Assembly (NCBI RefSeq): GCF_030697375.1
Contig: NZ_JAUYQD010000062.1
Span: 1-64,000 of the forward strand
Origin: Rhodoferax sp.
GTDB taxonomy: Bacteria > Pseudomonadota > Gammaproteobacteria > Burkholderiales > Burkholderiaceae_C
DNA length: 64,000 nucleotides
Reading direction: 5' to 3'
Shown in pieces: positions 17,103 through 30,744 of the stretch; position 1 is the stretch's first letter, and every line of letters starts with the position of its first letter. The notes below the pieces were generated by a model that worked only from the letters and a program-made list of their open reading frames with translations, was not told the DNA's origin and ran no database searches. The position numbers were made by a program, and so were the translations under genes.

Positions 17103-17978
17103 TCAGGCGTTCGCAGCGACAAATGCCAATATGGGCTCCAACTGCTCCGGTACATTGAGTGCCGGGGCATGGCCGCAGCCTGCAATCTCCATCACCTCCA
17201 ACAAACCCGCCGCACCAGGACCACGATGCGCCATCGCCTGGATGGTCTCTGGCAACACCAGGTCCGACTCCGCACCGCGCAGGCACAGCACCGGCACGCT
17301 GATTGCGTCGTAATGGTCCCAAATCAGGTAATCGTCGGGATGGCTGACAAATTGCGCCACCATGGCCGGGTCGTAGTGCGGGGTGACACGGCCATCGGGC
17401 AGGCGCCGCGTCGAGGTTTCGGTCAGGCGGCGCCACTGGGCGTCGCTGAGCCAACCATAGGGCTTGTAGACCTCACGGAAAAAAGCCTCCAGCTCCAGCA
17501 CGGTGTCAAACGCCGGCGGGCTCCCGGCATAGGCGCGGATGCGGTCAATGGCGGCTGCAGCCAGTTGCGGCGCGTTGTCATTGAGCGTGAGACTTTGGAT
17601 GCGTGCCTGCATGCCCGGCTGCAACAAACCGCCTGCGCAGACCGTGCCAATGGCCCCGCCCATGGACGTGCCCACCCAATGGGCTTGCTCAATGCCAAGC
17701 TGGTCAAACAACTCAGCCGCAATGCGCGCATAAAACGCCAGGCAGTACTCCTGCTCGGGCAGCGGACTCCATTGGCTCAAGCCCCGCCCGATGGTGTCGG
17801 GACAAATCACCCGGTAACCCTGTGCGCTCAGGTACTCGGCCAGCTCGTCCATGTCGCGCCCCGTGCGCGCCAGGCCGTGCCAAGCCACCACGGTGGGCGC
17901 ATTCCCGGCACCCCATTCGGTGTAGTGGATTTCGCGCCCTGCACAGCGCAGGTAATGGGAAGAGAACGGCATGGTCAT
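17103..17978 (-). CDS. Alpha/beta hydrolase at the end of the liv/PHB operon
   Basis: This 291-residue cytoplasmic alpha/beta hydrolase has no signal peptide. The HG oxyanion motif is VAWHGLARTG, the nucleophile elbow is GTSMGG (Ser105), the acid is probably Asp in RGAESDLV, and the His is in GCGHAPAL. The ATG at 17978 overlaps the livM stop by 4 bases, so it belongs to the operon. A longer reading frame upstream is only the out-of-frame shadow of livM. The substrate is not evident from sequence. Given the secreted PHB depolymerase and importer in the same operon, hydrolysis of imported 3-hydroxybutyrate oligomers or a related ester is a reasonable hypothesis. Confidence 0.85.
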   Translation of the reverse strand: MTMPFSSHYLRCAGREIHYTEWGAGNAPTVVAWHGLARTGRDMDELAEYLSAQGYRVICPDTIGRGLSQWSPLPEQEYCLAFYARIAAELFDQLGIEQAHWVGTSMGGAIGTVCAGGLLQPGMQARIQSLTLNDNAPQLAAAAIDRIRAYAGSPPAFDTVLELEAFFREVYKPYGWLSDAQWRRLTETSTRRLPDGRVTPHYDPAMVAQFVSHPDDYLIWDHYDAISVPVLCLRGAESDLVLPETIQAMAHRGPGAAGLLEVMEIAGCGHAPALNVPEQLEPILAFVAANA

Positions 17979-19048
17979 GATTTGGCCCCTATCGCGTTGG
18001 CACGCAAGCGCCCCACAATGCCCGTGGGAAAGTAATACACCGACAGCACGAACAGCACGCCCAGCCAGAGCAGCCAGCGGTCGGGCGACAACAAGGCGGC
18101 CAGCCAGGGCAGCCCTGAGGCCGCCTCGCTGCCCAGCCGCAGCAGGTCTTGCAGATAACTTTGCGCCACCAGAAACACCGCCGCGCCGATGGCCGCACCG
18201 TACATCGTGCCCATGCCGCCAATCACCACGATCAGCAGCACGTCCATCATGATCTCGAAAGACAGCGAGGTGTCCGGCCCGTTGTAGCGCAGCCAAAGCG
18301 CCAGCATGGCCCCGGCCAGACAGGCGAACAGCGCCGACAAAATGCTGGAGGTGGTGCGGTACACCACCACGCGGTAACCAATGGCCTCGGCACGGAATTC
18401 GTTCTCGCGGATGGCCTGCAGCACCCGGCCAAACGGCGAGTTGACGATGCGCAGCAGGGCCAGCAGGAGCACCAGCGCCACCGCAAACAGCAGGTAGTAA
18501 CAGAGCAGGCGCCCGTCCAGCATCACGCCCAGAAACGGCTCTTCCCTGAACTCGAAGCTGGGCGAGAGGATCTCGGGCACCTTGAAGCTCAGGCCGTCTT
18601 CGCCACCGGTGATATCCGAGAGTTGGGACGCCAGCGTCAAAAAGGCCGAGGCCACGGCCAGCGTGATCATGGCGAAAAAGATGGCCCGCACCCGCAGCGA
18701 AAACAGCCCCACCAGCAGGGCCAGCACCAAGGACACGGCCAGGGAGGACAGCAATCCCACGGCCAAGGCCTCCCAGGTCGGCCCCAGGCGGTTGGTCGCC
18801 ACCGCAATGCCGTAGGCGCCGATACCAAAAAACATGGTGTGGGCAAAACTGACGATGCCGGTGTAGCCCAGCAGCAGATCGAAACTGGCCACCAGCACGA
18901 TGAACACCAGCACCTTGGCGGCCACATTGAGCGCCTTCACGCCCGGGAAGATGAACGGCGCACCGGCCAGCGCGATCAGCAGCAGCACCAGCAGGACCGC
19001 CAGCACGCGGCTGCGGGGGAAGTCGTTGGAGAGAAGTCGTTGCAACAT
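17975..19048 (-). CDS. livM: HAAT-family ABC transporter permease LivM
   Basis: The predicted protein has 357 residues and about ten membrane segments, with the family region LLGYTGIVSFAHTMFFGIGAYG and the ABC-interaction segment VLQAIRENEFRAEAIGYRV. The start at 19048 (MLQRLLSNDF) is preferred over 19078 because CGAGG lies seven bases upstream of it. LivM pairs with LivH to form the membrane channel of a LivFGHMK-type importer. It is coupled to the following hydrolase gene by an ATGA overlap and separated from livH by a 199-base gap that holds a large hairpin. Confidence 0.93.
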   Translation of the reverse strand: MLQRLLSNDFPRSRVLAVLLVLLLIALAGAPFIFPGVKALNVAAKVLVFIVLVASFDLLLGYTGIVSFAHTMFFGIGAYGIAVATNRLGPTWEALAVGLLSSLAVSLVLALLVGLFSLRVRAIFFAMITLAVASAFLTLASQLSDITGGEDGLSFKVPEILSPSFEFREEPFLGVMLDGRLLCYYLLFAVALVLLLALLRIVNSPFGRVLQAIRENEFRAEAIGYRVVVYRTTSSILSALFACLAGAMLALWLRYNGPDTSLSFEIMMDVLLIVVIGGMGTMYGAAIGAAVFLVAQSYLQDLLRLGSEAASGLPWLAALLSPDRWLLWLGVLFVLSVYYFPTGIVGRLRANAIGAKS

Positions 19049-19149
19049 ACAGAAACCTCGAATAAAGCGTGTCTTCAATCAAAAACACCGCAGAACCGGC
19101 TTGGCCGTGCTGCTGGTGTTGCCCCCTGCAAGGGGCTGAGGGCTGCGGC

Positions 19150-19175
19150 TCCGAGCCTGCCTGCGCAGGCTCGGA
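19150..19175. repeat. Perfect 11-base hairpin between livH and livM
   Basis: Arms TCCGAGCCTGC and GCAGGCTCGGA flank a 4-base CTGC loop. There is no T-run, so it is not a simple intrinsic terminator. It lies in the 199-base intra-operon gap and could stabilise upstream mRNA, block RNase, or be an interspersed palindromic element. The rest of this gap is GC-rich and holds no gene. Confidence 0.6.
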
Positions 19176-19247
19176 CAGGCCGAAGAGCCCCGCCTCTGGC
19201 GGCTGGCACCTGGAGCGGCCACATGCAATGGGCAAGCCGGGGGGTGT

Positions 19248-20231
19248 TCATCGATTGGCCACCGGGTAGACCCCTTGCGGACGCCACAGCAAAATCGCCA
19301 CCATCAATGCGATGTTGGAAAACAGCGCCACTTTGGGCAGCAGAAATCCGGTGTAGTTGGCCATCAGGCCCACCAGCAGCGCACCGATCAAGGCGCCCCC
19401 AGTGGAACCCAGGCCGCCGATGATGATCACGATAAAAATCAGCACATTGACCTGTGCCCCCATCTGCGGCGTCACGTTTTGCTGGTACAGGCCCCACATC
19501 ACGCCGCCCAGGCCGGCGAGCGCGCTGCCCACTACAAACACACCGACAAAGAGGCGCTTGATGCGGTAGCCCAGGGACTCGACCATCTCGCGGTCTTGCA
19601 CCCCGGCGCGGATCAGCAGGCCAATCTTGGTGCGGCTCAGGGTCCAGGCCAGCACCGCAAACACCAGCAGGCCCACGGCCACCGCCAGCAGGCGGTACTT
19701 TTCTATGGCGGCATCGCCCAGTAGCACCGCGCCCCGCAGGCCTTCGGGCAGGGGCAAGGCGATTTGCGCCGGGCCCCAGATCACCTTGATGAGTTCCTCG
19801 CCAATGATCATGCCGCCCATGGTGATGAGGATTTGCTTGAGGTGCTGGCCGTAGACCGGCCGCACGATGAAGCGCTCAAACGCCAGCCCCAGCGCGCCCG
19901 ATACGGCCATGGCCACCAGCATGGCCGGAAACACCGCCACCAGGTTGCGCCACAGGTCCTGCGAGCCGGTCCAGTCGCCCATCAGGCCCAGCACCGTGGT
20001 GGCGACAAAGGCACCCAGCGCAATGAAGACGCCGTGGCCGAAGTTCAGCACGTCCATCAGGCCAAACACCAAGGTCAGGCCCGAGGCGATGATGAAAACA
20101 ATCATGCCCATGGCCAGACCCGCCACCGTGAGCGTGAGCCAGGTGGACGGCGAACCGATGAAGGGCAAGACCAGCAGCGCCAGCGCGGGCACCAGCAGCA
20201 GCGGTTTCCAGTCGAAATCGAGCGCCTTCAT
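19248..20231 (-). CDS. livH: HAAT-family ABC transporter permease LivH
   Basis: This 327-residue membrane protein starts at 20231 with a strong GGGAGGAA ribosome-binding site; the longer open frame upstream is the shadow of livF. It has about eight membrane segments and family motifs such as FGLMDVLNFGHGVFIALGAFV and TKIGLLIRAGVQDREMVESLGY (EAA-like coupling loop). It forms the channel with LivM. The 91-base gap from livF contains one copy of the interspersed repeat. Confidence 0.94.
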   Translation of the reverse strand: MKALDFDWKPLLLVPALALLVLPFIGSPSTWLTLTVAGLAMGMIVFIIASGLTLVFGLMDVLNFGHGVFIALGAFVATTVLGLMGDWTGSQDLWRNLVAVFPAMLVAMAVSGALGLAFERFIVRPVYGQHLKQILITMGGMIIGEELIKVIWGPAQIALPLPEGLRGAVLLGDAAIEKYRLLAVAVGLLVFAVLAWTLSRTKIGLLIRAGVQDREMVESLGYRIKRLFVGVFVVGSALAGLGGVMWGLYQQNVTPQMGAQVNVLIFIVIIIGGLGSTGGALIGALLVGLMANYTGFLLPKVALFSNIALMVAILLWRPQGVYPVANR

Positions 20232-20253
20232 GACGGGTTCCTCCCTATTGCAG

Positions 20254-20310
20254 TTGCTACATTTTTCATAGCTGCTTGCGCATATAAATAAAGGGCTAGA
20301 GGCACTTTTG
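20254..20310 (+). repeat. Interspersed repeat copy (livF-livH gap)
   Basis: This is a copy of the repeat found several times in this window. It starts TTGCTAC, then TTTTTCATAGCTGCTTGCG, and ends in AAAGGGCTAGAGGC. The left half is an imperfect palindrome (GCTA...TAGC). It lies wholly between the livF stop and the livH ribosome-binding site and would be transcribed within the operon. Confidence 0.75.
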
Positions 20311-20322
20311 ACTCCCAATCGT

Positions 20323-21048
20323 TCATATGGCCAAGCCCAGCAGCGATTGCTGCAGTTGTTCGTCGTCCGCCAACGCCTGCATGGTGCCCGCGTGCACCAC
20401 CCGCCCGTTGTCCATGACCGCCACTTGGTCGCCCAGGCGTTTGGCGAAGTTGATGTTTTGCTCCACCAGCAAGATGGTGGTGCCAGTGGCCTTGAGCTGG
20501 GCAAAGGCGTCGATCATGTTGTTGATGATGGCCGGGGCCAGGCCCTTGCTGGGCTCGTCCACGATCAGCAATTCGCGTGGCTCCACAATGGCGCGCGCCA
20601 CCGCCAGCATCTGTTTTTGTCCGCCCGAGAGCTTGCCGGCGGGGTGGTTCCAGAACTTTTCGACCGCCGGAAACAGCGAAAAAATCCACTGCAAGCGGGC
20701 CTCATCCATCTGGCCGGCATGTTTGGCCTGGCGCGCCGCCAGCAGCATGTTTTCCTTGACGCTGAGGTCGGAAAAAATGCCCATGTTCTCCGGCACGTAG
20801 GCGATGTTCAGGCCGGCAATCTGCGGCGTGTGCATCTGCGTGATGTCCTGGCCCGCGAATGCCAGCCGCCCTTGCGATGCCTGCCACAGGCCCATGATGG
20901 TGCGCAAGGTGGTGGTCTTGCCGGCGCCATTGCGCCCCAGCAGCATGGTGAGTTGCCCCTTGGGCACCACCAGGTCCACCCCGTGCAGGATGTGGTAGGC
21001 GCCGATGTGGGTGTGCACCCCCGATAAAGTCAGAAGATTCGCGCTCAT
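20323..21048 (-). CDS. livF: HAAT-family ABC transporter ATPase LivF
   Basis: This 241-residue ATP-binding subunit has Walker A LGRNGAGKTTT, the signature LSGGQKQML, Walker B ELLIVDEPSKGLAP and H-loop LLVEQN. It pairs with LivG to power the importer. The ATG overlaps the end of livG by 4 bases. Length and motifs are typical. Confidence 0.95.
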   Translation of the reverse strand: MSANLLTLSGVHTHIGAYHILHGVDLVVPKGQLTMLLGRNGAGKTTTLRTIMGLWQASQGRLAFAGQDITQMHTPQIAGLNIAYVPENMGIFSDLSVKENMLLAARQAKHAGQMDEARLQWIFSLFPAVEKFWNHPAGKLSGGQKQMLAVARAIVEPRELLIVDEPSKGLAPAIINNMIDAFAQLKATGTTILLVEQNINFAKRLGDQVAVMDNGRVVHAGTMQALADDEQLQQSLLGLAI

Positions 21049-21845
21049 GGTGCCTTGCTCCTTCCACTGTCCGCTTGCGCCGAGGCGTCCTTGGGGTTCA
21101 CCCCAAGGTACGCCTCCTGCACCACGGGCGAGGCAATCACGGTGGCTGGCTCGCCATCGGCCACCAGCGTGCCGTTGTGCAGCACGATGATGCGGTCGGC
21201 CAGTTCGCGCACCACGTCCATCTTGTGCTCCACCAGCAGAATGGTTTTGGTCTTGTCGTTTTTCAGCGCGCGGATCAGGTTGAGAATGACCGGTGCTTCG
21301 TCGTGGCTCATGCCCGCCGTGGGCTCATCGAACATATAGACCAGCGGGTCCAGCGCCATCAGCAGCGCGACTTCGAGCTTGCGCTGGTCGCCATGCGGCA
21401 AGTTGGCCACCAGGGTGTGCTGTTGGTGGTTCATGGCCACCGCGTCCAGCACCTCTTCGGCGAGCTGGGTCAGGGCCTTGTGGTCGCTCCAGATGCTCCA
21501 CAGGTTCAGCCCCCGCAGATGCGCACCCGGGCGCGCCGCCTGCACCGCCAGCCGCACGTTTTCCAGCACCGACAGATTGGGAAACAGGTTGGTCAACTGA
21601 AACGCCCGCCCCAGCCCGGCCCGGGTACGGCTGGACGGGCTCTGGCCAGAGAGGCTGTTGCCATTGAGCCGCACTTCCCCCGCCGTGGCCTTGATCTGGC
21701 CCGAAATCAGGTTGAAAAACGTGGTCTTGCCCGCGCCATTGGGGCCGACGATGGCGGTCAAGGTGCCAGGTTTGAAGGTGCAACTGACCGCATTCACCGC
21801 CACGTGCCCGCCAAAGCGGACCGTCAAGTCTTGGGTAACTAACAA
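21045..21845 (-). CDS. livG: HAAT-family ABC transporter ATPase LivG
   Basis: This is a 266-residue ATP-binding subunit. Walker A is VGPNGAGKTTFFNLI and Walker B is DPLVYMFDEPTAGMSHDE, with H-loop LLVEHKMDV. The usual LSGG signature appears as LPHGDQRKLEVA, normal for LivG proteins. The reading frame begins with TTG at 21845 (minus strand TTG-TTA-GTT), with GGAGA about nine bases upstream; no better-placed ATG is visible, so a TTG start is likely. It follows the PHB depolymerase gene by 33 bases. Confidence 0.93.
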   Translation of the reverse strand: MLVTQDLTVRFGGHVAVNAVSCTFKPGTLTAIVGPNGAGKTTFFNLISGQIKATAGEVRLNGNSLSGQSPSSRTRAGLGRAFQLTNLFPNLSVLENVRLAVQAARPGAHLRGLNLWSIWSDHKALTQLAEEVLDAVAMNHQQHTLVANLPHGDQRKLEVALLMALDPLVYMFDEPTAGMSHDEAPVILNLIRALKNDKTKTILLVEHKMDVVRELADRIIVLHNGTLVADGEPATVIASPVVQEAYLGVNPKDASAQADSGRSKAP

Positions 21846-21878
21846 TCTTGTTTTCTCCGGTTCAGCCAGTGGGTGCGC

Positions 21879-23339
21879 TCAGGGACAGGTGCCAATCACG
21901 TAGTAGTTCGGCCCGGTCATCTTCAAAGTCGTGGTGACGAAGATGTTCCACCAGCCCATGTTCTGGTTGGAACCATTGGCGTAGGCCACACCGAAGATCG
22001 GGTACGCCCGCCCAGCCAAGGTGTGTGCATAGTTGCTGGCGGTGGTGCAACTTACAACAGGCGGTGGCGTGCCCGACGTTGTGCCACTGGCGGCCAGCGA
22101 GGTGGCACCCTCGGCGCCGTTGGCGTCGGCGGCTCTCACGGTCCAGTTGTAAGTAGTGGCAGACGCCAGGCCGGTATCGTTGAAGGCCATGGCCATCACG
22201 GGCAAGGCATTGGCTTTGTTGCTGTTGCGGTAAACGTTGTAGCTGGCGGCGCCCGAAACGGCGCTCCAGCCGATCATCATGGCATTGGCACTGGCGTTCG
22301 AGGTGGTGACATTGGCCGGCGCAGGCAAGGCGGCGGGCGGTGGCGTGACCGTGCCGCCGGAGGAAACCTGGTCCACCATGGCCTTGATGGCCGCCATTTG
22401 CGGGCCGGACTTCTGGGCGTAGTTGGCACTGTCATACCCCCACCAGTCCCAGCAACTGTTGGTGGCCTGCGTGCTGGTTTGCGGGTACAGCACCACCAGG
22501 TTGTTGGTATCAGCCCAGCGGTTGTAGCCGGTGTTGCGCACATATTGCTGCTGCACCAACGTGACGTTTTGCTGGCAGCCGTGCAGAACCACATGCAAAC
22601 GGCACTGCGCGCCAGAAGCACAGGCCTGGGGAATGTAGGCCCAGCCGGTGGGCGCCATGCCGTGGTTGGTGACAAACTGGCTTTGGTTGAATTCCACAAA
22701 ATTGCCGGCGGGCAGGCTGCCGCTGTTGCGCGCGTTCAATGGGCCATACAGGTGCGAAAGAATTGCGCCCGCAAGGTCGAAATTGCAGTCGTTGATGTAG
22801 GGCGAGCCTTTGACGGAACAGGCGCTGCCGTAGTCGTCGGTCACCATCGCGTGCTCTGCCGCAATGTCTTTCTTGTAGACCGTGTTGGCAGCAGGTACAA
22901 AGCTGCTGTAGTAGGTTTTCAACGCATCCATCACGCCGGGTTTGACCGTGCTGTCTACCGTGCCCGAGAAGAGGTAGACCTTGGAGTTTTGCAAATGGGC
23001 CACCGGGTCTATGGTGCCGGCGCTGGCCCAATTGTTGGTGGTGCTGACCAAGGTGCTGGTGGGAATGCCAGCCGGGCTGGCCATGCAGCGCCCGGTTGCG
23101 TTGGTGATGGACCCTTGCGCGCAGTAGAACGGTCCCCCGGCCACAATGCCCGCGCCCTTTTGGAACGTGGCGGAGTAGCCCACATGCAATTGCACCGCCA
23201 TGAATCCACCAGACGACAAACCGGACACCGAGGTCTGGCTGCTATCGATATGCAGCGGCGGCAGATTCACCGCAGCCAAGGCTCCGGCGCTGGCCAGCGC
23301 AGCCATGCTGGCGCTCAGACGAATGGAAAAACAAAGCAT
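21879..23339 (-). CDS. Extracellular poly(3-hydroxybutyrate) depolymerase, type 2 catalytic domain
   Basis: This 486-residue secreted enzyme has a signal peptide (about 1-23) and a catalytic domain (about 28-330) of the circularly permuted type 2 class. Nucleophile Ser42 is in GLSSG near the N-terminus, Asp129 is in SGTVDS, His163 is in AAEHAMVTDDYG, and the oxyanion motif VLHGCQQ comes last (about 251-257). A Pro-rich linker leads to a fibronectin type III domain (about 332-420) and a C-terminal region with ASNYAHTLAGRAYPIFGVAYANGS that probably binds polymer. It cleaves PHB outside the cell into oligomers and 3-hydroxybutyrate. The start at 23339 has AGGAGA upstream. Its place between livK and livG is unusual and suggests that the importer takes up its products. 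Confidence 0.92.
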   Translation of the reverse strand: MLCFSIRLSASMAALASAGALAAVNLPPLHIDSSQTSVSGLSSGGFMAVQLHVGYSATFQKGAGIVAGGPFYCAQGSITNATGRCMASPAGIPTSTLVSTTNNWASAGTIDPVAHLQNSKVYLFSGTVDSTVKPGVMDALKTYYSSFVPAANTVYKKDIAAEHAMVTDDYGSACSVKGSPYINDCNFDLAGAILSHLYGPLNARNSGSLPAGNFVEFNQSQFVTNHGMAPTGWAYIPQACASGAQCRLHVVLHGCQQNVTLVQQQYVRNTGYNRWADTNNLVVLYPQTSTQATNSCWDWWGYDSANYAQKSGPQMAAIKAMVDQVSSGGTVTPPPAALPAPANVTTSNASANAMMIGWSAVSGAASYNVYRNSNKANALPVMAMAFNDTGLASATTYNWTVRAADANGAEGATSLAASGTTSGTPPPVVSCTTASNYAHTLAGRAYPIFGVAYANGSNQNMGWWNIFVTTTLKMTGPNYYVIGTCP

Positions 23340-23365
23340 ACAAGCAGTCTCCTGGTTTTAGGGGC

Positions 23366-23396
23366 AAAAAAATCCCTGCCCCCGTGTTTGCGGGGG
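23366..23396 (-). terminator. Hairpin with T-run between livK and the depolymerase gene
   Basis: The minus strand reads CCCCCG-CAAACA-CGGGGG, then CAGGGA and seven T residues. The T-run is offset six bases from the stem, so it is probably a partial terminator. It would leave livK transcripts more abundant than the downstream genes, as is common for substrate-binding proteins. Confidence 0.6.
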
Positions 23397-23451
23397 AGTC
23401 AAGCGAGTTCAAAGAGTCGGGGCACTGCACCCCGCAAGACCTGTGCGCGGC

Positions 23452-24633
23452 TTAGCGCTTGTTGCGGACTGGAATCGTCATTTCCTCGGCCTTGATCTCA
23501 CGCACCAGCTCCGGCACACCCCAGGCAAAGGCCGGGTCCACCTTGATCTTGAAGTGGTACATGCTTTGCATGGCCTGGTGGTCTTCCTTGCGGAAAGTCA
23601 TCTTGCCCTTGGGGGTGTCAAAACTCATGCCTTCCATGGTCTTGATCAGGGTGTTGGCCGAGGCATCCCCCTTGCTGGCGTTCAGCGCCGCAACCACCGC
23701 CATCGCCGCCGAAAAGCCCCCGGCCGTGAAGAAGTCGGGCGGCGCCTTGAACTGGCTGTAGTGGCGCGAGACCATGGCCTCGTTCACCGCGTTCTTGGGC
23801 ATGCCAAAGTAGTAGTACGCCGCGCCCTCCATGCCGGGGAACTGCTTGTAGGCCACCATGGCGGGCAGGATGTTGCCACCCGTGGCGATCTCGATGCCGT
23901 AGCGCTTCAAATCCATGTCGGCGATCTTGAACGGGTTGCCGCCGGCCCAGATGATGAAGATGACTTTGCGGCCCGGCTGGTCCTTGAGCTTGTCGATCAG
24001 GCGCTGGGCACCGGCCGTGAAGTCGGTGGTGGCCGGGGGCAGAAACTCTTCATGCACCAGCTTGGCTTTTTTGATGGCTTCCTTGAAGGCCTTCACGCCG
24101 TCGCGGCCAAAGGCCGAGTCTTGCGCCAAGGTGGCAATCGTCACACCGGCCTTGTCCAGCGCCACGGCATTGGCAATGGCGTCTTGCGAGCTGTTGCGCC
24201 CGGTGCGGAAGATGTATTTATTCCACTTGTCACCGGTGATGGAGTCGGCCACGGCGGGCTCCACCAGCAAAATCTTCTTGTACTCCTCGGCCACGGGCAG
24301 CATGGCCAGCGCCACGGGCGAAGCCGTAGGGCCCACGGCAATATCCACCTTGTCGTCGCCGTAGGCGGCGGCCAGCAAGGACTTGCCCTGGTCCGGCTTG
24401 CCCTGGTCGTCTTTCTCAATCACCACCAGCTTTTTGCCAGCCACGGTCATGGTGCCGCCGGTGGCGTAGTCCAGGCCCATCATGAAACCGGTGGCGGTTT
24501 GTTTGCCGTAGGCCTCCAGCGGGCCGGTCTTGCTGTAGATGTGGGCGATTTTGATTTCTTTGGACTGGCTGAATGCCGGTGCGGCAAAAGCGGTGGCCAA
24601 GACTGCGAGCGTGATCAGATTGCGACGTTGCAT
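23452..24633 (-). CDS. livK: Periplasmic substrate-binding protein of the HAAT importer (LivK type)
   Basis: The 393-residue protein has a signal peptide (MQRRNLITLAVLATAFAAPAFSQ) and a type I periplasmic binding fold (KEIKIAHIYSKTGPLEAYGKQTATGFMMGLDYATGG; VGPTASPVALAMLPVAEEY). Binding proteins of this class carry amino acids, amides or small organic acids, and the ligand cannot be read from sequence. It is the first structural gene of the operon, with AAAGGAGAC upstream and a sigma-54 promoter 34 bases before the start. With the PHB depolymerase as the next gene, 3-hydroxybutyrate or its dimers are candidate ligands (inference). Confidence 0.93.
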   Translation of the reverse strand: MQRRNLITLAVLATAFAAPAFSQSKEIKIAHIYSKTGPLEAYGKQTATGFMMGLDYATGGTMTVAGKKLVVIEKDDQGKPDQGKSLLAAAYGDDKVDIAVGPTASPVALAMLPVAEEYKKILLVEPAVADSITGDKWNKYIFRTGRNSSQDAIANAVALDKAGVTIATLAQDSAFGRDGVKAFKEAIKKAKLVHEEFLPPATTDFTAGAQRLIDKLKDQPGRKVIFIIWAGGNPFKIADMDLKRYGIEIATGGNILPAMVAYKQFPGMEGAAYYYFGMPKNAVNEAMVSRHYSQFKAPPDFFTAGGFSAAMAVVAALNASKGDASANTLIKTMEGMSFDTPKGKMTFRKEDHQAMQSMYHFKIKVDPAFAWGVPELVREIKAEEMTIPVRNKR

Positions 24634-24666
24634 GGAAAAGTCTCCTTTTAGGGTGCAAGCCTTAAC

Positions 24667-24681
24667 GCAACCATCGTGCCA
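24667..24681 (-). promoter_or_regulatory. Sigma-54 (-24/-12) promoter of the livK-depolymerase operon
   Basis: The minus strand reads TGGCAC-GATGG-TTGC, an exact match to the sigma-54 consensus TGGCAC-N5-TTGC. It sits 34 bases upstream of the livK start, leaving room for transcription to start near 24655. The gene just upstream encodes a sigma-54 activator, and activator-like dyads lie 50-90 bases further upstream. Confidence 0.88.
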
Positions 24682-24732
24682 AAGCCATAGGCTTTGATTT
24701 CATTGGATATTTTTCAACACCCCAACAAAAAC

Positions 24733-24772
24733 GTCTAATATTCAGACAATAAATATGCCTGAATATCAGACA
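24733..24772. promoter_or_regulatory. Tandem upstream activator sites for the sigma-54 regulator
   Basis: Two similar dyads are present: GTCTAATATTCAGAC (24733-24747) and TGCCTGAATATCAGACA (24756-24772). The half-sites TTCAGACA and ATCAGACA are 24 bases apart. Relative to the sigma-54 promoter they lie at about -80 to -115, where enhancer-binding proteins act. The adjacent regulator, with its Fis-type helix-turn-helix, is the obvious candidate to bind them. Confidence 0.7.
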
Positions 24773-24784
24773 TATGTACAAATA

Positions 24785-26257
24785 TTAGTCAGGGTTTACC
24801 ATACGCCCGTACAGGGTGGCACGTGAAATGCCGAGCAAGCGCGCGGTGGCCAGCTTGTTGCCCTGGGTCGCCACCAGCGCCGCCGCAATGGCGCGTTGCT
24901 CCAGTTCCGCCACCTGCTCCGCCAGCGGGCGCAGCAGGTCGGCGCCGCCCGCCGTGCTGGGCTGGGCCAGCGCGGGGGCGATGTCTTCCAGCCCCGAGCC
25001 GCGCAAAATCTTCTCCAACTGCGCCGCGTCAATGCTGGGCAAGTCGCAGGACAGGGCCGCCTGCTCCAGCACGTTGCGCAGCTCGCGGATGTTGCCGCGC
25101 CACTTCTGCCCCGCCAGCAAGGCCAGTGCATCGGGCAGCACCTCGGGCTGGGCGCTGCCGCTGCGCAAGGCCATGTCTTCGCTCAGTGACTCGACCAGCG
25201 CGGGAATGTCGCTGCGGCGCTCGCGCAAGGAAGGTACGCGGATCGGCAGCACATTGAGGCGGTAAAACAGGTCCTCGCGGAACTTGCCCTCGCGCACCAG
25301 CGCCGCCAGGTCGCGCGAGGTGGCAGCCACCACCCGTGCGTCGAAGGGCACCAGGCGGTTGGAGCCCAGGGGTTCAATCTCTCCTTCTTGCAGCGCACGC
25401 AGCAGCTTGGCCTGCAGGCCCTGGGGCATGTCGCCTATTTCGTCCAGAAACAAGGTGCCGCCGTCGGCCAGCTTGAACTTGCCGTCGCGCCCCTTGCGGT
25501 CGGCACCGGTGTAGGCGCCAGGGGCCACGCCGAAAAATTCGGCCTCCAGCAGGGTGTCGGGCACCGCCGCGATGTTGACACCCACAAACGGGCCTTGGGC
25601 GCGGTGCGACAGGGCATGGATGGCATGCGCCAGCAGTTCCTTGCCAGTGCCCGTTTCCCCCAGCAGCAAGACCGGGCTGCTGGACTGCGCCGCGCGGCGC
25701 GCCTGGCGCTTGACCTCCACGGCGGCGGCGCTGGTGCCCACAAAGCTGGCCAAGGTGTATTTGGATTGGCGTGCACCCTGTTTGCCACCGATGCGCTGCA
25801 CCGCCAGCTCCCGGCGGGCTTCGTCCAGGTCGCGCTGCAGCAGGGAGAACTTGGCAATTAGGGGCTGCAAATGGGTTTCGGGCTGGTCAAACAGCACAAT
25901 GCCCAGCGCGCCAATGACCACGCCCGCCGAATCGCGCAGCGGAATGCGGCTCACCACAAAGGTGCCCGCGCGGTTGGTCAGCAGGTCGATGAGGATGGGC
26001 TTGCCAGTCTCCAGCACCTGGTGCATCTGCGTGTTTTGCACCACGGCCGACACCGGGTGGCCCACAAACTCGTCTTCATGCGCAAAGCCCAGCGCCGGCA
26101 AAAACCGCTTGTACTGGTCGTTGATCCAGACCACGCGGGCCTGCCGGTCCACCAGCATCATGCCTTCGCTGGCGCTGGCAAACAGCCCAAACATGGAGCG
26201 CGCGGCCAGCTCCAGAATGCTCTGGGCGTCGCGGGGTAAAGAGTCGGTCGGGTTCAT
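24785..26257 (-). CDS. PAS-domain sigma-54-dependent activator
   Basis: The 490-residue enhancer-binding protein has an N-terminal PAS-like sensor (about 18-130: FASASEGMMLVDRQARVVWINDQYKRFLP) and a central AAA+ domain (about 170-395) with Walker A GETGTGKE, the sigma-54 contact loop GAYTGA (variant of GAFTGA), Walker B GGTLFLDEIGD and arginine-finger region FREDLFYRLNVLPIRVP. A C-terminal Fis-type helix-turn-helix follows (about 448-487, GNKLATARLLGISRATLYGRM). Its stop is 12 bases from the activator sites that precede livK. It almost certainly activates the liv/depolymerase operon, perhaps in response to a small carboxylic acid sensed by the PAS domain (inference). Confidence 0.93.
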   Translation of the reverse strand: MNPTDSLPRDAQSILELAARSMFGLFASASEGMMLVDRQARVVWINDQYKRFLPALGFAHEDEFVGHPVSAVVQNTQMHQVLETGKPILIDLLTNRAGTFVVSRIPLRDSAGVVIGALGIVLFDQPETHLQPLIAKFSLLQRDLDEARRELAVQRIGGKQGARQSKYTLASFVGTSAAAVEVKRQARRAAQSSSPVLLLGETGTGKELLAHAIHALSHRAQGPFVGVNIAAVPDTLLEAEFFGVAPGAYTGADRKGRDGKFKLADGGTLFLDEIGDMPQGLQAKLLRALQEGEIEPLGSNRLVPFDARVVAATSRDLAALVREGKFREDLFYRLNVLPIRVPSLRERRSDIPALVESLSEDMALRSGSAQPEVLPDALALLAGQKWRGNIRELRNVLEQAALSCDLPSIDAAQLEKILRGSGLEDIAPALAQPSTAGGADLLRPLAEQVAELEQRAIAAALVATQGNKLATARLLGISRATLYGRMVNPD

Positions 26258-26410: not shown

Positions 26411-27547
26411 TCAATCCAGGGTCTGCCGGTAGCGTTTGAGCGCCACCGTGCCCGCCACGGCCAGGAAAGCGAGCATGGGCCACAGCTCGGGCAGCAGTTG
26501 GTCCACGGTATTGCCCTTGAGCAGAATGCCGCGCACGATGCGCAGGAAATGGGTCAACGGCAGCACCTCGCCAATCCACTGCGCCCACTCGGGCATGGCC
26601 CGAAAGGGAAACATAAAGCCTGACAAGAGCATGGAGGGCAAAAAGAAGAAAAACGTCATCTGCATGGCCTGCAACTGGTTGCGTGCCACGGTGGAAAAGG
26701 TAAACCCCACCGCCAAATTGGCCACAATGAACACGCCAATCATGGCCATGAGCAGCGCCAGGCTGCCCACCATGGGCACCTGGAACAGCAAGAACGCCGC
26801 CACCATGATCACGCCCAGCTGGATGTAGCCGATCAGCACGTAGGGCAGGATTTTCCCCACCATCACCTCCGAGGGCCGCACCGGGGTGGCCAACAGGTTT
26901 TCCATGGTGCCGCGTTCGCGCTCGCGGGTCATGGCCAACCCCGTGAGCATGACCATGGTCATCGTCAAAATGGTGCCAATCAGCCCGGGCACGATGTTGT
27001 AACGCGACAGGCCCTCCGGGTTGTAGCGGCGGTGGATGCGCACCTCGTACGGGGGCGCCGCCGTTTGCAACGCGCGCAAGGGGCCAACCAGGTCGTGGCG
27101 CAGCGCCAAGCCCGACACGGCACTCAGCGCCGCAATCGCATTGCCCGAAGCGGACGGGTCGGTGGCGTCCACCGACACCAGCAGGGCGGGATGTTCACCC
27201 CGCACCAGTTTTTGGGTGAAATCGGGGGGAATGACCACCAAAAACTGCACCCGCCCGGACTCCACCAGGGCCTCGCCCTCCCGCTCGCTGGTGCCGGTGT
27301 GGTCGATACGGAAATAACCCGTGTTTTGCAGCGCCGCAACGATGCTGCGCGACAGCGGGCCGCTGTCGGTGCTGACCACGGCGGTGGGCAGGCCCTTGGG
27401 GTCGGTATTGATGGCGTAGCCAAACAGCACCAGTTGCAAAATGGGCACCCCCACCGCCATGGCGAAGGTCAGGCGGTCGCGCATCATCTGCTGGAATTCC
27501 TTGATGAAAACCGCCAGCATGCGGTTCCAGGAGAAGCGGGTGTTCAT
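26411..27547 (-). CDS. ABC-2 type exporter permease
   Basis: The 378-residue protein has one N-terminal membrane segment (about 28-48), a large extracytoplasmic domain (about 50-180) and five C-terminal segments (LIGTILTMTMVMLTGLAMTRERERGTMENLLATPVRPSEVMVGKILPYVLIGYIQ...). The RERGTMENLLATPV motif is typical of the YhhJ/YbhR/YbhS permeases. With the downstream-named ATPase and HlyD-like adaptor it forms a small exporter for drugs or hydrophobic compounds. Only one permease gene is present, where some related operons have two. Confidence 0.9.
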   Translation of the reverse strand: MNTRFSWNRMLAVFIKEFQQMMRDRLTFAMAVGVPILQLVLFGYAINTDPKGLPTAVVSTDSGPLSRSIVAALQNTGYFRIDHTGTSEREGEALVESGRVQFLVVIPPDFTQKLVRGEHPALLVSVDATDPSASGNAIAALSAVSGLALRHDLVGPLRALQTAAPPYEVRIHRRYNPEGLSRYNIVPGLIGTILTMTMVMLTGLAMTRERERGTMENLLATPVRPSEVMVGKILPYVLIGYIQLGVIMVAAFLLFQVPMVGSLALLMAMIGVFIVANLAVGFTFSTVARNQLQAMQMTFFFFLPSMLLSGFMFPFRAMPEWAQWIGEVLPLTHFLRIVRGILLKGNTVDQLLPELWPMLAFLAVAGTVALKRYRQTLD

Positions 27548-27568
27548 GGCGTGCTCATGGTGTGCTGT

Positions 27569-28306
27569 TCACGCGAAGTTGTCCTGTGCTTGCCCCACCA
27601 GGCGCACAAAAGCGTCTTCCAGGTCGGCGGCCCCGGCCGCGGCCACAATCTGCGCGGCCGTGCCTTGCGCCAGGATTTTTCCGTAGGCAATGTAGACCAA
27701 TTCGTCGCAGCGCTGGGCCTCGTCCATATAGTGGGTGGACACCAGCACCGTGATGCCCTGCCCGGCCAGCACATGGATCTGGTCCCAGAACTCCCGGCGG
27801 GCCTTGGGGTCCACGCCCGCTGTTGGCTCGTCCAGCAGCAGCAAGCGCGGTGCATGGATCAGGCACGCCGCCAAGGCCAGGCGCTGCTTCCAGCCGCCCG
27901 ACAGTGCGCCGGCCAGTTGTTGTTGGCGCGCCGTGAGGCCCAGCCGCTCCAAGGCCAGGTCCACCGCCTCGCGGCGACGCGGCAATTCAAACAGGCGGGC
28001 CACAAAGTCCAGGTTTTCGCGGATGGACAGGTCCTCGTACAGGCCAAATTTCTGGGTCATATAACCCACCTGGCGCTTGATGGCGCCGGCCTGGGTGCTG
28101 ATGCCCAAGCCCAAACAAGTGCCCGTGCCTGCGTCGGGCGTGAGCAATCCGCACAGCATCCGGATGGTGGTGGTTTTGCCGCTGCCGTTGGGGCCCAGAA
28201 AGCCACAAATCCGGCCCTCGCCCACCTGCAACTGGATCTGGTCCACCACCGCCCGCCCCGCGTAGCGCTTGGTCAAGCCACTGACATCTATCGCCAATGG
28301 GCTCAC
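27569..28306 (-). CDS. ABC exporter ATP-binding protein
   Basis: This 245-residue ATPase has Walker A LGPNGSGKTTTIRML, signature LSGGWKQRLALA, Walker B RLLLLDEPTAGVDP and the H-loop LVSTHYMDEA. It is a single nucleotide-binding domain and presumably acts as a homodimer on the adjacent ABC-2 permease. Its ATG overlaps the end of the HlyD-like gene by 4 bases, and 21 bases separate it from the permease gene. Confidence 0.94.
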   Translation of the reverse strand: MSPLAIDVSGLTKRYAGRAVVDQIQLQVGEGRICGFLGPNGSGKTTTIRMLCGLLTPDAGTGTCLGLGISTQAGAIKRQVGYMTQKFGLYEDLSIRENLDFVARLFELPRRREAVDLALERLGLTARQQQLAGALSGGWKQRLALAACLIHAPRLLLLDEPTAGVDPKARREFWDQIHVLAGQGITVLVSTHYMDEAQRCDELVYIAYGKILAQGTAAQIVAAAGAADLEDAFVRLVGQAQDNFA

Positions 28307-29289
28307 GGTGTGGCTCCCGCAGGCGCCGGGCGCACATCCAGGGGTTGGCCGGGGTGCAATCGGCCCGGCTGCGCGGGGTCCGGCTGCGCTTCGACCATGA
28401 ACACCAGCTTGGCGCGCTGCACATTGGAGTAAATCACCGGTGGCGTGTATTCGGCCTGGGTCGCAATCCGCGTCACGGTGGCCGCAATCGGCGCTCCGCA
28501 GCCATCACACCCTAGCAGCACCTGCTGTCCCGCAGACACATGCGTGATTTCGGCTTCGGGTACAAAAAACCGCGCTTTGATATTGGCGGGGGGCAGCAAA
28601 GCCAGAACCGGCTGCCCCGCGGGTACAAATTCCCCGGGCCGAAAGAACACATCGGCCACCAGGGCGCTGGTCGGAGAAAACTGCTGTTTTTGCGTGGCGC
28701 GCCATTGGGTTTGGCGCAGGGCCTGTGCCGCCGCCGTGGCCGTGGCCTGGCTGGCCACGCGTTCGTCCACACGGGCGGGCAAGCGGGCCACCCGCAGGGC
28801 CGCCGTCAACTCTGCCACGCGGGCTTGCGCTTGGCGCACGGCGGTGGTGGCGTCGTCCAGGCGCGCTTGGGAAACAAAGCCTTGCGCCACCAGTTGCCGC
28901 TGGCGCGCCAAATCGCTCTGCGCCAGGGCGGCATGGGCCTGGGCCTGGGCGAGCTGCGCCTCGGTGATGGCGATTTCGTCGCTCCGACGGCCCTTCTCCG
29001 CGTTGGCCGCTTGTGCACGGGCGCTCGCCAAGCGGGCTGCGGCCTCATCACTGGCAGCACGCTCGACCTCCGCATCCAGGGTGAACAAGACCGCGTCTTT
29101 GGGCACGTGTTGCCCCGCTTGCACCGCCAGCGACTCCAGGCGTCCGGCCAGCGGCGCGGCAATGTACACATAGTCGCCCTCGGCGTAACCAGACCAGTCG
29201 GCTGCCGGCTTCTCAGCGCAAGCTCCGGCCAGTAATAGCAAAGGCAGCAGCAGCCAACGTGGTTGTGCTTTCGGGTCAGGTCTGGCCAT
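28303..29289 (-). CDS. HlyD-family periplasmic adaptor lipoprotein
   Basis: The 328-residue membrane-fusion protein has a lipoprotein signal with lipobox LLAGAC (Cys about 24). A lipoyl-like half domain follows (AAPLAGRLESLAVQAGQHVPKDAVLFTLDAE), then a long Ala/Gln-rich coiled-coil hairpin (about 75-200), the second lipoyl half (SALVADVFFRPGEFVPAGQPVLALLPP) and a beta barrel. It links the inner-membrane ABC exporter to an outer-membrane channel, as in YhiI/YbhG. Its start overlaps the end of the tetR-like gene by 14 bases. Confidence 0.91.
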   Translation of the reverse strand: MARPDPKAQPRWLLLPLLLLAGACAEKPAADWSGYAEGDYVYIAAPLAGRLESLAVQAGQHVPKDAVLFTLDAEVERAASDEAAARLASARAQAANAEKGRRSDEIAITEAQLAQAQAHAALAQSDLARQRQLVAQGFVSQARLDDATTAVRQAQARVAELTAALRVARLPARVDERVASQATATAAAQALRQTQWRATQKQQFSPTSALVADVFFRPGEFVPAGQPVLALLPPANIKARFFVPEAEITHVSAGQQVLLGCDGCGAPIAATVTRIATQAEYTPPVIYSNVQRAKLVFMVEAQPDPAQPGRLHPGQPLDVRPAPAGATP

Positions 29290-29962
29290 GCTGCAATTCC
29301 TTATGGGGTGTGGTCAATGCCGCAAGTGCCCGATCGACCCGCTCAGCAATCCCATGGTCACTGAGCACGTCGGCCTGCACTTGTACGGAAAGTTGCGGGG
29401 GAGCGATGCCCAGCTGAATAGCTCTGGGCGCAATCAGCATGGGGGCCACCACGGCACCCATCAAAAAAGTGAACCGTTGCATGGGCGCCATGGGGACCAG
29501 ATCACCCTCTTGCGCGGCTTGTTCCAAGAGGCCCAACAGCAGCAGCACATGGCGGGACCCATTGTTTTGGAGAAATTGCAAAGCGACGGGTTCCTGCTGC
29601 CCGGCATCCGACCACACCCGCCCCAACCACGCACCATGCTCGCACATCAATCGGCCCAGAAGGCACAAAGCTTGACGTACACGCTGGATGGCCGTCCCCC
29701 CCTGTGCGACCTGCGCCTGGAGTTGCAGGAACAGTTCGTCGTACATCTGCTGCAGGAGCACCCGCAAAAAGTTGTCCTTGCTTTGAAAATGGTAGTGAAA
29801 CATGCCCACATTCACCTGCGCATGCGCGGCCAGCCTGCGCAAGGACAATCCCGCGCAGCCGTGCTCAGGGAACAACCTTCTGCCGCTTGCGAGCAAAACC
29901 TGGTCAATATTGCGAGACGGACGGGGCATAGAGGCGACAAAACTCACTTTTTTATTAGTCAT
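29276..29962 (-). CDS. TetR-family repressor of the ABC exporter
   Basis: Up to 228 residues. The N-terminal helix-turn-helix is ASGRRLFPEHGCAGLSLRRLAAHAQVNVGMFHYHFQSKDNFLRVLL, typical of TetR proteins; the C-terminal ligand-binding domain is unspecific. Two starts are possible: ATG 29962, which lies inside a palindromic operator, or ATG 29929 (MPRPSRNIDQVLL), which would place that operator in the leader. Neither has a strong ribosome-binding site. It is the first gene of the exporter operon and probably represses it from that operator. Confidence 0.9.
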   Translation of the reverse strand: MTNKKVSFVASMPRPSRNIDQVLLASGRRLFPEHGCAGLSLRRLAAHAQVNVGMFHYHFQSKDNFLRVLLQQMYDELFLQLQAQVAQGGTAIQRVRQALCLLGRLMCEHGAWLGRVWSDAGQQEPVALQFLQNNGSRHVLLLLGLLEQAAQEGDLVPMAPMQRFTFLMGAVVAPMLIAPRAIQLGIAPPQLSVQVQADVLSDHGIAERVDRALAALTTPHKELQHGQT

Positions 29963-30201: not shown

Positions 30202-30744
30202 ATGCTGACCGTCGAACAAGTCATGGCTTCCCACAAAGCAAACATCGAAACCCTCTTGGGTTTGTCTTCCAAGGCTTTTGAAAGCGTTGAGAAAATCGTT
30301 GAACTCAACCTGACCGCGTCCAAAGCGGCTCTGGCTGAAACCGGTGACCATGCTAAGGCCATCCTGAGCGTGAAAGACGCACAAGAACTGCTCGCACTGC
30401 AGTCTGGCTTGCTCCAGCCCTTGGCTGAAAAGACCGCTGCATACAGCCGTCATCTGTATGACATCGCAACTGGCGCTGGTGCTGAATTCAGCAAAGCTTT
30501 CGAAGGCCAGGCAGCCGATGCACAAAAGAAGTTTGTGGACATGGTTGACAGCGCTGCCAAGAATGCGCCCGCAGGTTCCGAGTCGGCTGTTGCCATGATG
30601 AAAAGCGCAGTATCGTCCGCCAACAACGCTATGGAATCTGTGCAAAAAGCGGTCAAACAAGCGACTGAAGTTGCCGAAGCAAACTTCAATGCGGTGGCCG
30701 CCACTGCAACCAACGTGACCAAGCAAGCTGCTAAAAAGCGTTAA
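30202..30744 (+). CDS. phaP: Phasin (PHB granule-associated protein)
   Basis: This 180-residue protein is almost wholly alpha-helical and Ala/Lys/Glu-rich, with the phasin start [44 protein letters not shown]. Phasins coat intracellular PHB granules and control their number and size. The ATG has TTGGAGAA eight bases upstream. It is monocistronic, with its own promoter and a terminator at 30904-30934. Its presence shows that the organism itself makes PHB. Confidence 0.95.

Follow-up and report, generated by a model that had tools for sequence, protein, structure and literature searches.

A putative polyhydroxybutyrate and 3-hydroxybutyrate utilisation locus with its own HAAT-class ABC importer in Rhodoferax sp.

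Organisation of the locus

The window analysed here, i.e. a stretch of 64,000 nt from Rhodoferax sp. (assembly GCF_030697375.1, contig NZ_JAUYQD010000062.1, positions 1-64,000), carries at positions 17103-26257 a run of eight genes which, judging from sequence comparisons, is probably a locus for the utilisation of polyhydroxybutyrate (PHB) and 3-hydroxybutyrate (3HB). Read on the minus strand from 26257 down to 17103, these are the genes of an activator, LivK, a depolymerase, LivG, LivF, LivH, LivM and an alpha/beta hydrolase. A predicted PHB depolymerase is hence combined with an ATP-binding cassette (ABC) importer of the hydrophobic amino acid uptake transporter (HAAT) class, which would take up (R)-3HB and/or short 3HB oligomers. 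The features are as follows:

24785-26257, minus strand: sigma-54-dependent activator with PAS, AAA+ and Fis-type helix-turn-helix parts (PF00158 221 bits, PF08448 PAS_4, PF02954)
24756-24772, unstranded: palindromic activator-binding-like site 1 (TGTCTGAAWWTCAGRCA with 1 mismatch)
24732-24748, unstranded: palindromic activator-binding-like site 2 (TGTCTGAAWWTCAGRCA with 2 mismatches)
24667-24681, minus strand: sigma-54 -24/-12 promoter-like element TGGCACGATGGTTGC (TGGCAC-N5-TTGC, 48 bases before livK)
23452-24633, minus strand: livK-type periplasmic binding protein (Peripla_BP_6, PF13458 176 bits)
21879-23339, minus strand: predicted secreted type-2 short-chain-length polyhydroxyalkanoate (scl-PHA), i.e. 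PHB, depolymerase (NF050059 411 bits)
21045-21845, minus strand: livG-type ATP-binding protein (PF00005 102 bits)
20323-21048, minus strand: livF-type ATP-binding protein (PF00005 105 bits)
19248-20231, minus strand: livH-type permease (PF02653 122 bits for the frame 19248-20261; the start at 20231 was picked by eye)
17975-19048, minus strand: livM-type permease (PF02653 124 bits for the frame 17975-19078; the start at 19048 was picked by eye)
17103-17978, minus strand: alpha/beta hydrolase, candidate cytoplasmic 3HB-oligomer esterase (PF00561 65 bits)

A preliminary description of this stretch had named the same eight genes in this order on one strand, with an extracellular type 2 PHB depolymerase encoded inside the transporter operon, an ATGA overlap of the livM and hydrolase genes and control by sigma-54. 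Family matches and coordinates bear out the arrangement: the depolymerase gene lies between livK and livG, the livM stop overlaps the hydrolase start in the ATGA at 17975-17978, and 22 of the 33 depolymerase-bearing genomes of the family, own genome included, have the depolymerase gene by livK. On the level of sequence, the assignment to the type 2 family and the notion of a sigma-54 regulon were also upheld, as detailed below.

The predicted depolymerase

The depolymerase lies clearly above the NCBIfam model NF050059 for type-2 extracellular scl-PHA depolymerases (411.4 bits, cut-off 280), and its Pfam match is modest (PF10503 31 bits, cut-off 23). Residues 26-328 align with the solved PHB depolymerase chains 2D80 and 2D81 (229 bits), and S42, D129 and H163 fall on the catalytic Ser, Asp and His positions in this alignment. 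Their placement follows the triad numbering of 2D80, and the serine is confirmed by the two chains, which differ by Ser/Ala at this position. The lipase box with the catalytic serine is located near the N-terminus, which itself appears signal-like by eye. A linker resembling fibronectin type III domains scores 21 bits, under the Pfam cut-off of 25, and the remaining C-terminal stretch has no Pfam match. In family and triad the enzyme agrees with the extracellular type-2 PHB depolymerases; it is, by these sequence features, a type-2 enzyme whose activity towards PHB is predicted.

One could imagine a different polyester, natural or synthetic, as the substrate of the enzyme, with the pump importing the monomer of that polyester, as the locus is also present in Acidovorax delafieldii (L235), a species that degrades other polyesters too. 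However, the matches to the type-2 scl-PHA model and to a solved PHB depolymerase with its triad, together with the 3HB-oligomer hydrolase and 3HB dehydrogenase partners encoded in relatives (see below), make this the least probable of the alternatives considered here. A transcript attenuator between livK and the depolymerase gene was ruled out, because the hairpin that can be drawn in this gap is no more stable than shuffles of it (z 0.01).

The LivK-type protein and the transporter

The make-up of a HAAT-class importer is complete, with a PF13458 binding protein, two PF02653 permeases and two PF00005 ATPases, all above cut-off, and this five-gene composition is the one of the LivJFGHM-type importers. 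None of the proteins reaches the models for branched-chain amino acid transport of the Escherichia coli type (LivK 63.5 bits against a cut-off of 477 for NF011933, LivG 187 against 362, LivF 189 against 441, LivH 73.9 against 379 and LivM 85.4 against 366), nor those for the urea transporter Urt (UrtA 47.4 against 493, UrtD 202 against 304, UrtE 214 against 286, UrtB 159 against 250 and UrtC 119 against 296).

In LivJ, the acidic residue that binds the alpha-ammonium group of the ligand is Glu226 of the mature protein. In both MAFFT and hhalign alignments, LivJ Glu249 in precursor numbering lies opposite Ile255 of LivK, a residue that is invariant across 13 LivK sequences, and none of seven LivK-type sequences aligned with LivJ has an acidic residue beside this position. 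The placement is weak, as LivK and LivJ share 24% identity and the hhalign probability is 73.5. In contrast to E. coli LivKHMGF and to Urt, the proteins of the window hence combine scores far under the respective cut-offs with a linkage to PHB and 3HB genes and with the lack of an acidic residue opposite the LivJ glutamate.

Close homologs of LivK with solved structure are 3N0X (557 bits) and 3NND (532 bits), which match nearly the whole mature length and presumably derive from Rhodopseudomonas palustris. A homolog of LivK has thus already been crystallised, and among the papers listed for the codes 3N0X and 3NND none deals with these structures. The available part of the text of a ligand screen in R. 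palustris contains neither a "hydroxybut-" nor an "acetoacet-" string (PMC3223731). An AlphaFold model of LivK built with 19 close relatives was too poor for use (mean predicted local distance difference test score 52.5).

Some relatives carry additional binding proteins. At five loci (L046, L051, L218, L224, L230) the activator gene is followed by two tandem livK genes, the more distant copy being 72-77% identical to livK of the window. A second binding protein is encoded after livM or after the oligomer hydrolase (L047:12707-13852, a Peripla_BP_6 protein; matches in L036, L037, L045, L054 and L056), and it may have an oligomer of another length as its ligand.

Distribution of the operon and of the depolymerase gene

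We surveyed 150 genomes of the family with thresholds of E ≤ 1e-30 for the depolymerase and E ≤ 1e-110 for LivK. Depolymerase matches were found in 33 genomes (own genome included; 34 matches in total), and the regions of 32 matches were fetched, the other two being that of the window and a fragment in G104, which was seen in L138. The 22 genomes with the depolymerase beside livK in a liv operon comprise 20 with the order livK-depolymerase-livG, the window, and G104, whose fragment on a short contig shows the livK side only. The operon-linked depolymerases fall into two groups with 65-79% and 54-61% identity to that of the window. When 35 depolymerases (23 linked, 12 free) are placed on a tree, linked and free enzymes are intermixed; linkage changes six times, and nearly all label shuffles gave higher numbers (mean 10.2).

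LivK occurs in 84 of the 150 genomes, and 81 loci were examined (the window, 20 linked and 60 others; G021, G109 and G093 were left out). The depolymerase or its fragment is present at 22 of them. The other 59 have no depolymerase, and livG, livF, livH and livM are all present in 56 of these. On a tree of LivK, LivH, LivM and LivF from 77 loci, the presence of the depolymerase changes 15 times, at least 10 of them on supported branches. The core of activator, livK, livGFHM and hydrolase is therefore commoner than the depolymerase, and the latter was ruled out as a defining part of the operon by the 59 loci that do without it. Since the depolymerase is an accessory (22 of 81 loci), the dedicated unit is more likely an importer of 3HB, or of a related short acid, to which PHB enzymes are optionally added.

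In a set of named genomes, made up of the best 80 of at least 550 livK relatives, with several short contigs and leaning towards Curvibacter, Limnohabitans and metagenome-assembled genomes (MAGs), the depolymerase was found at 6 of the 80 loci and a 3HB-oligomer hydrolase (3HBOH) at 13. The six belong to a Rhodoferax MAG, a Burkholderiaceae MAG, Acidovorax sp. NO-1, Ramlibacter montanisoli, Acidovorax delafieldii DSM 64 (L235) and an Acidovorax MAG. The two sets are not independent, as some genomes are shared (e.g. L178/G063 and L175/G014).

From these data it can also be judged whether the depolymerase gene was merely inserted by chance into an operon for amino acid transport. The transporter class and the 59 of 81 livK loci without depolymerase would fit such an event. 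Against it stand the use of one and the same slot in 22 genomes by two depolymerase groups, the occupation of another slot of the liv operon by a second PHB gene (see below), the scores far under the branched-chain cut-offs and the LivJ glutamate position without an acidic residue. We thus consider a chance insertion very improbable, and discarded it on account of the repeated slot and the second PHB gene elsewhere in the operon.

3HB-oligomer hydrolase genes and neighbours from the 3HB pathway

The second PHB gene encodes a 3HBOH (PF10605), a type of enzyme present in 42 of the 150 family genomes. In 25 of the 42 it lies downstream of livM within the operon, and 17 do not show it there. Two whole copies that were tested score 925 and 1047 bits with PF10605; the copy at L035:8601-9737 is an open frame of 378 aa with its middle missing, which PF10605 matched in three stretches. 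The 3HBOH gene follows livM at 12 of 20 linked loci and at 13 of the 53 assessable loci without a depolymerase (Fisher p = 0.013). Among 10 independent pairs on the tree, 3.1 on average point in the same direction and 0.5 in the opposite one. Since the test across such pairs is not significant, we do not rely on this association and give more weight to the fact that each of the two genes is linked to the operon. At L042, L292 and L295 a depolymerase gene lies near a 3HBOH gene without a livK-livGFHM operon; L295 also encodes, after the depolymerase, a binding protein that shares 59% identity with the second one described above, and a weak livM match (37%) at the edge.

Beyond the family, livK (E ≤ 1e-90) was found in 20 of 349 genomes of a phylum sample, own genome included, some of them in other classes. 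The depolymerase (E ≤ 1e-60) occurs in 25 of 250 genomes of the order, own genome included; leaving aside the window and G020, 20 of the remaining 23 were fetched (two contigs of about 5-6 kb), and only two, both of another Burkholderiales family (f95), show the liv arrangement. In these two (L293, L294), livK, depolymerase, livGFHM, thiolase, AMP ligase and 3HB dehydrogenase genes form a single run. At L293, the depolymerase (NF050059 387 bits, cut-off 280) and the thiolase (NF005704 659 bits, cut-off 412) are above their cut-offs and the ligase is below every cut-off shown (best 443 against 476). The 3HB dehydrogenase models are the top models for both dehydrogenases, with that of L293 just above one of them (NF009093 259.5 bits, cut-off 258) and below the other (TIGR01963 264.7 bits, cut-off 307), and that of L294 under both (251.4 and 256.9 bits). 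Divergently to livK, both loci encode a large protein that resembles TonB-dependent receptors by eye (L293:9809-12262, L294:1094-3544) and that could possibly serve as the outer-membrane entry.

Further neighbours were an AMP ligase (471 bits, cut-off 476) and a 3HBOH after livM at L277, a CoA-transferase-like gene upstream of livK at L278 that is below all cut-offs shown, acyl-CoA genes near the livK locus L290, and, just upstream of the activator gene at L050, a protein 67% identical to a 3HB dehydrogenase of the own genome. The neighbours at L293/L294, L277, L278, L290 and L050 identify the 3HB pathway on grounds other than the depolymerase.

In this context it has to be asked whether the core transporter is built for some other short acid of the hydroxy or keto type, e.g. 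acetoacetate or other hydroxyalkanoates, with 3HB being just one of its substrates and PHB enzymes having been added in some lineages because 3HB is also accepted. The 59 of 81 loci with a core but no depolymerase, the 15 changes in depolymerase presence on the liv tree, of which supported branches carry at least 10, and the position of some cores of other classes near other acyl-CoA genes (L278, L290) are in line with this view. The genes added in the operons of the family and of L293/L294, namely those for depolymerase, 3HBOH and 3HB dehydrogenase, nevertheless indicate 3HB itself, and 13 operons without depolymerase have retained 3HBOH. On balance we regard a different principal substrate as rather unlikely.

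The cytoplasmic hydrolase and the 3HB genes of the own genome

The alpha/beta hydrolase encoded at the end of the operon has no signal peptide visible by eye and is found at 18 of the 20 linked loci and at 52 of the 59 without depolymerase. It is no simple stand-in for 3HBOH, because it is kept where 3HBOH is present. The own genome encodes a paralog with 38% identity, divergently to a 3HB dehydrogenase gene whose product is above cut-off (TIGR01963 343.6 bits). This paralog is matched in 106 of 200 genomes of the order, and of 30 of its loci (own included), 11 have a close dehydrogenase (65-100% identity) within flanks of 1.5 kb and 18 have none; one further dehydrogenase match (29%) was left out of the 11.

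An overlapping variant of the proposed function is that dimers and trimers of 3HB are imported instead of the monomer, with the cytoplasmic hydrolase as the main oligomer cutter. The wide occurrence of the hydrolase and its apparent lack of a signal peptide, the close 3HB dehydrogenase that neighbours the paralog at 11 of 30 loci and the own genome without a PF10605 match speak for it, and the retention of the hydrolase alongside 3HBOH speaks against it, since no simple replacement has then taken place. We would call this variant possible, if doubtful. Given the missing PF10605 match, import of oligomers followed by cytoplasmic cutting seems more likely in the genome of the window than in the relatives that bear 3HBOH.

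Control region and activator

Upstream of livK, the window contains the two palindromes and the -24/-12 promoter-like element. We scanned the own 5.78 Mb genome for TGTCTGAAWWTCAGRCA, with the reversed pattern as a control. Site 1 (24756-24772) is the best match of the genome, and only three places have ≤2 mismatches, namely sites 1 and 2 and C115:142970-142986, which is as good as site 2 (2 mismatches) and in whose surroundings no 3HB gene was recognised by eye. At ≤3 mismatches the scan gave 28 matches in forward and 24 in reverse orientation, compared to 7 and 2 for the reversed pattern. A wide palindrome regulon was ruled out, as there is a single outside place at ≤2 mismatches and neither of the 3HB dehydrogenases above cut-off has an adjoining site.

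In 57 of 81 stretches before livK (80 loci of relatives plus the window), the pattern TGGCAY-N6-TGC lies no more than 200 bases upstream of the gene, and in one it occurs on the reverse strand; the count of 57 is descriptive, as the pattern was loosened after reading the sequences, and the reverse-strand count serves as its control. A strict sigma-54 pattern is present in 12 and a looser one in 22 of 80 stretches. The palindrome (≤4 mismatches, within 400 bases) was found upstream of livK in 69 of the 81 stretches and in two or more copies in 53, compared to 0-2 and 0 in ten shuffled sets, the consensus having been drawn by eye from some of the 81 stretches and then scored on all, those included, and the shuffles preserving single-base composition only. 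With its PF00158 activator, its conserved -24/-12 element and its conserved paired sites, the locus is a predicted sigma-54 regulon.

The activator is matched in 79 of the 150 family genomes (E ≤ 1e-120). Among 274 genomes of the class (E ≤ 1e-95), more distant matches occur in three genomes besides two of the family. There are four such matches (51-54%), three of which adjoin genes for tripartite ATP-independent periplasmic (TRAP) transporters (L338, L339, L340), one with a CoA transferase in line, and the fourth (L341) does not. L338, L339 and L340 look as if the type of pump had been exchanged beneath one regulator.

Proposed function and comparison with known systems

Taken together, the sequences show the gene order, the protein families, the conserved promoter- and operator-like sites and the repeated linkage to PHB and 3HB genes. 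From these we infer the following route, including what LivK binds, what the hydrolase cleaves, what the activator senses and every enzyme activity. The PAS-containing sigma-54 activator would bind the two palindromes and fire the sigma-54 promoter upon 3HB or a related signal. The secreted type-2 depolymerase would cut PHB outside the cell, the LivK-type protein would capture (R)-3HB and/or short 3HB oligomers, and LivHMGF would carry them into the cell. There, the cytoplasmic hydrolase could finish the oligomers, and acetoacetate would be produced by a 3HB dehydrogenase whose gene lies outside the locus; in many relatives, a 3HB-oligomer hydrolase encoded within the liv operon would contribute. 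The depolymerase and the oligomer hydrolase are, in our best reading, a patchy cargo of the importer operon.

Several observations weigh against a locus of this kind. The depolymerase is missing from 59 of the 81 livK loci, present at 22 with the fragment counted, and located away from liv genes in 11 of 33 genomes, and L157, which has the closest livK (97%) among the matches listed, is without it. Within the fetched stretches, some of which end early, the activator gene was seen at no more than 16 of the 20 linked loci and 47 of the other 59. The association of depolymerase and 3HBOH is not significant across independent tree pairs (median p 0.375). Lastly, of the two 3HB dehydrogenases above cut-off in the own genome, neither is encoded at the locus or has an adjoining palindrome, and the search of this genome with PF10605 gave zero matches.

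The preliminary description had read the locus as a complete polymer-scavenging route and had suggested a survey of relatives for conserved livK-depolymerase-livGFHM linkage. The route gains from the 3HBOH gene after livM in 25 genomes, from the thiolase, ligase and 3HB dehydrogenase genes of L293/L294 and from the dehydrogenase of L050, but its secreted step is an accessory (22 of 81 loci). The linkage itself came out between the extremes, with the depolymerase neither universal nor absent from nearly all relatives.

In polysaccharide utilisation loci, a sensor, a secreted depolymerising enzyme, an importer and an intracellular hydrolase are encoded in one unit. The locus described here would have the same composition, with the differences that the substrate is a polyester and that a HAAT-class ABC importer is proposed. 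PHB is both a storage polymer and a commercial biodegradable plastic, and the bacterial uptake of its products is, to our knowledge, little described. In the literature searched, with most subscription papers outside its scope, neither a type-2 depolymerase or 3HB-oligomer hydrolase gene in an operon with an importer nor a bacterial 3HB ABC importer was reported. With somewhat less confidence than for the function itself, we suggest that no other polyester utilisation locus with a dedicated ABC importer has been recognised so far. In this view the importer, one of the HAAT class with (R)-3HB and/or short oligomers as natural ligand, is widespread in the family, reaches other classes and has repeatedly had a depolymerase gene (in the livK/livG slot) and a 3HBOH gene (after livM) plugged in.

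For two components, there are counterparts among known systems. According to the parts of the reports available, HbcR (PA2005) of Pseudomonas is a sigma-54 regulator of (R)-3HB metabolism that can be activated by (R)-3HB (PMC10482368, PMC8657755). Like the activator of the window it is a sigma-54 activator, and it is a functional parallel; the target in the window is an ABC importer operon. The 3HB-oligomer hydrolases (PF10605) are represented in the operons of relatives. PhaY1 and PhaY2 are listed for Ralstonia eutropha in the available part of another source (PMC3430594).

If the proposed function is correct, the pump would carry a food not yet known for HAAT-class pumps within the literature searched, and many binding-protein genes that general models class as branched-chain amino acid transporters would belong to 3HB importers. 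The locus could further mark genomes of organisms that can feed on PHB or on 3HB set free by other organisms.

Neighbouring genes

Outside the operon, about 4 kb from the activator gene, the window also contains a phasin gene (30202-30744, plus strand; PF09361 100 bits). Between the two, at 26411-29962, lies a cluster that by eye resembles an export system.

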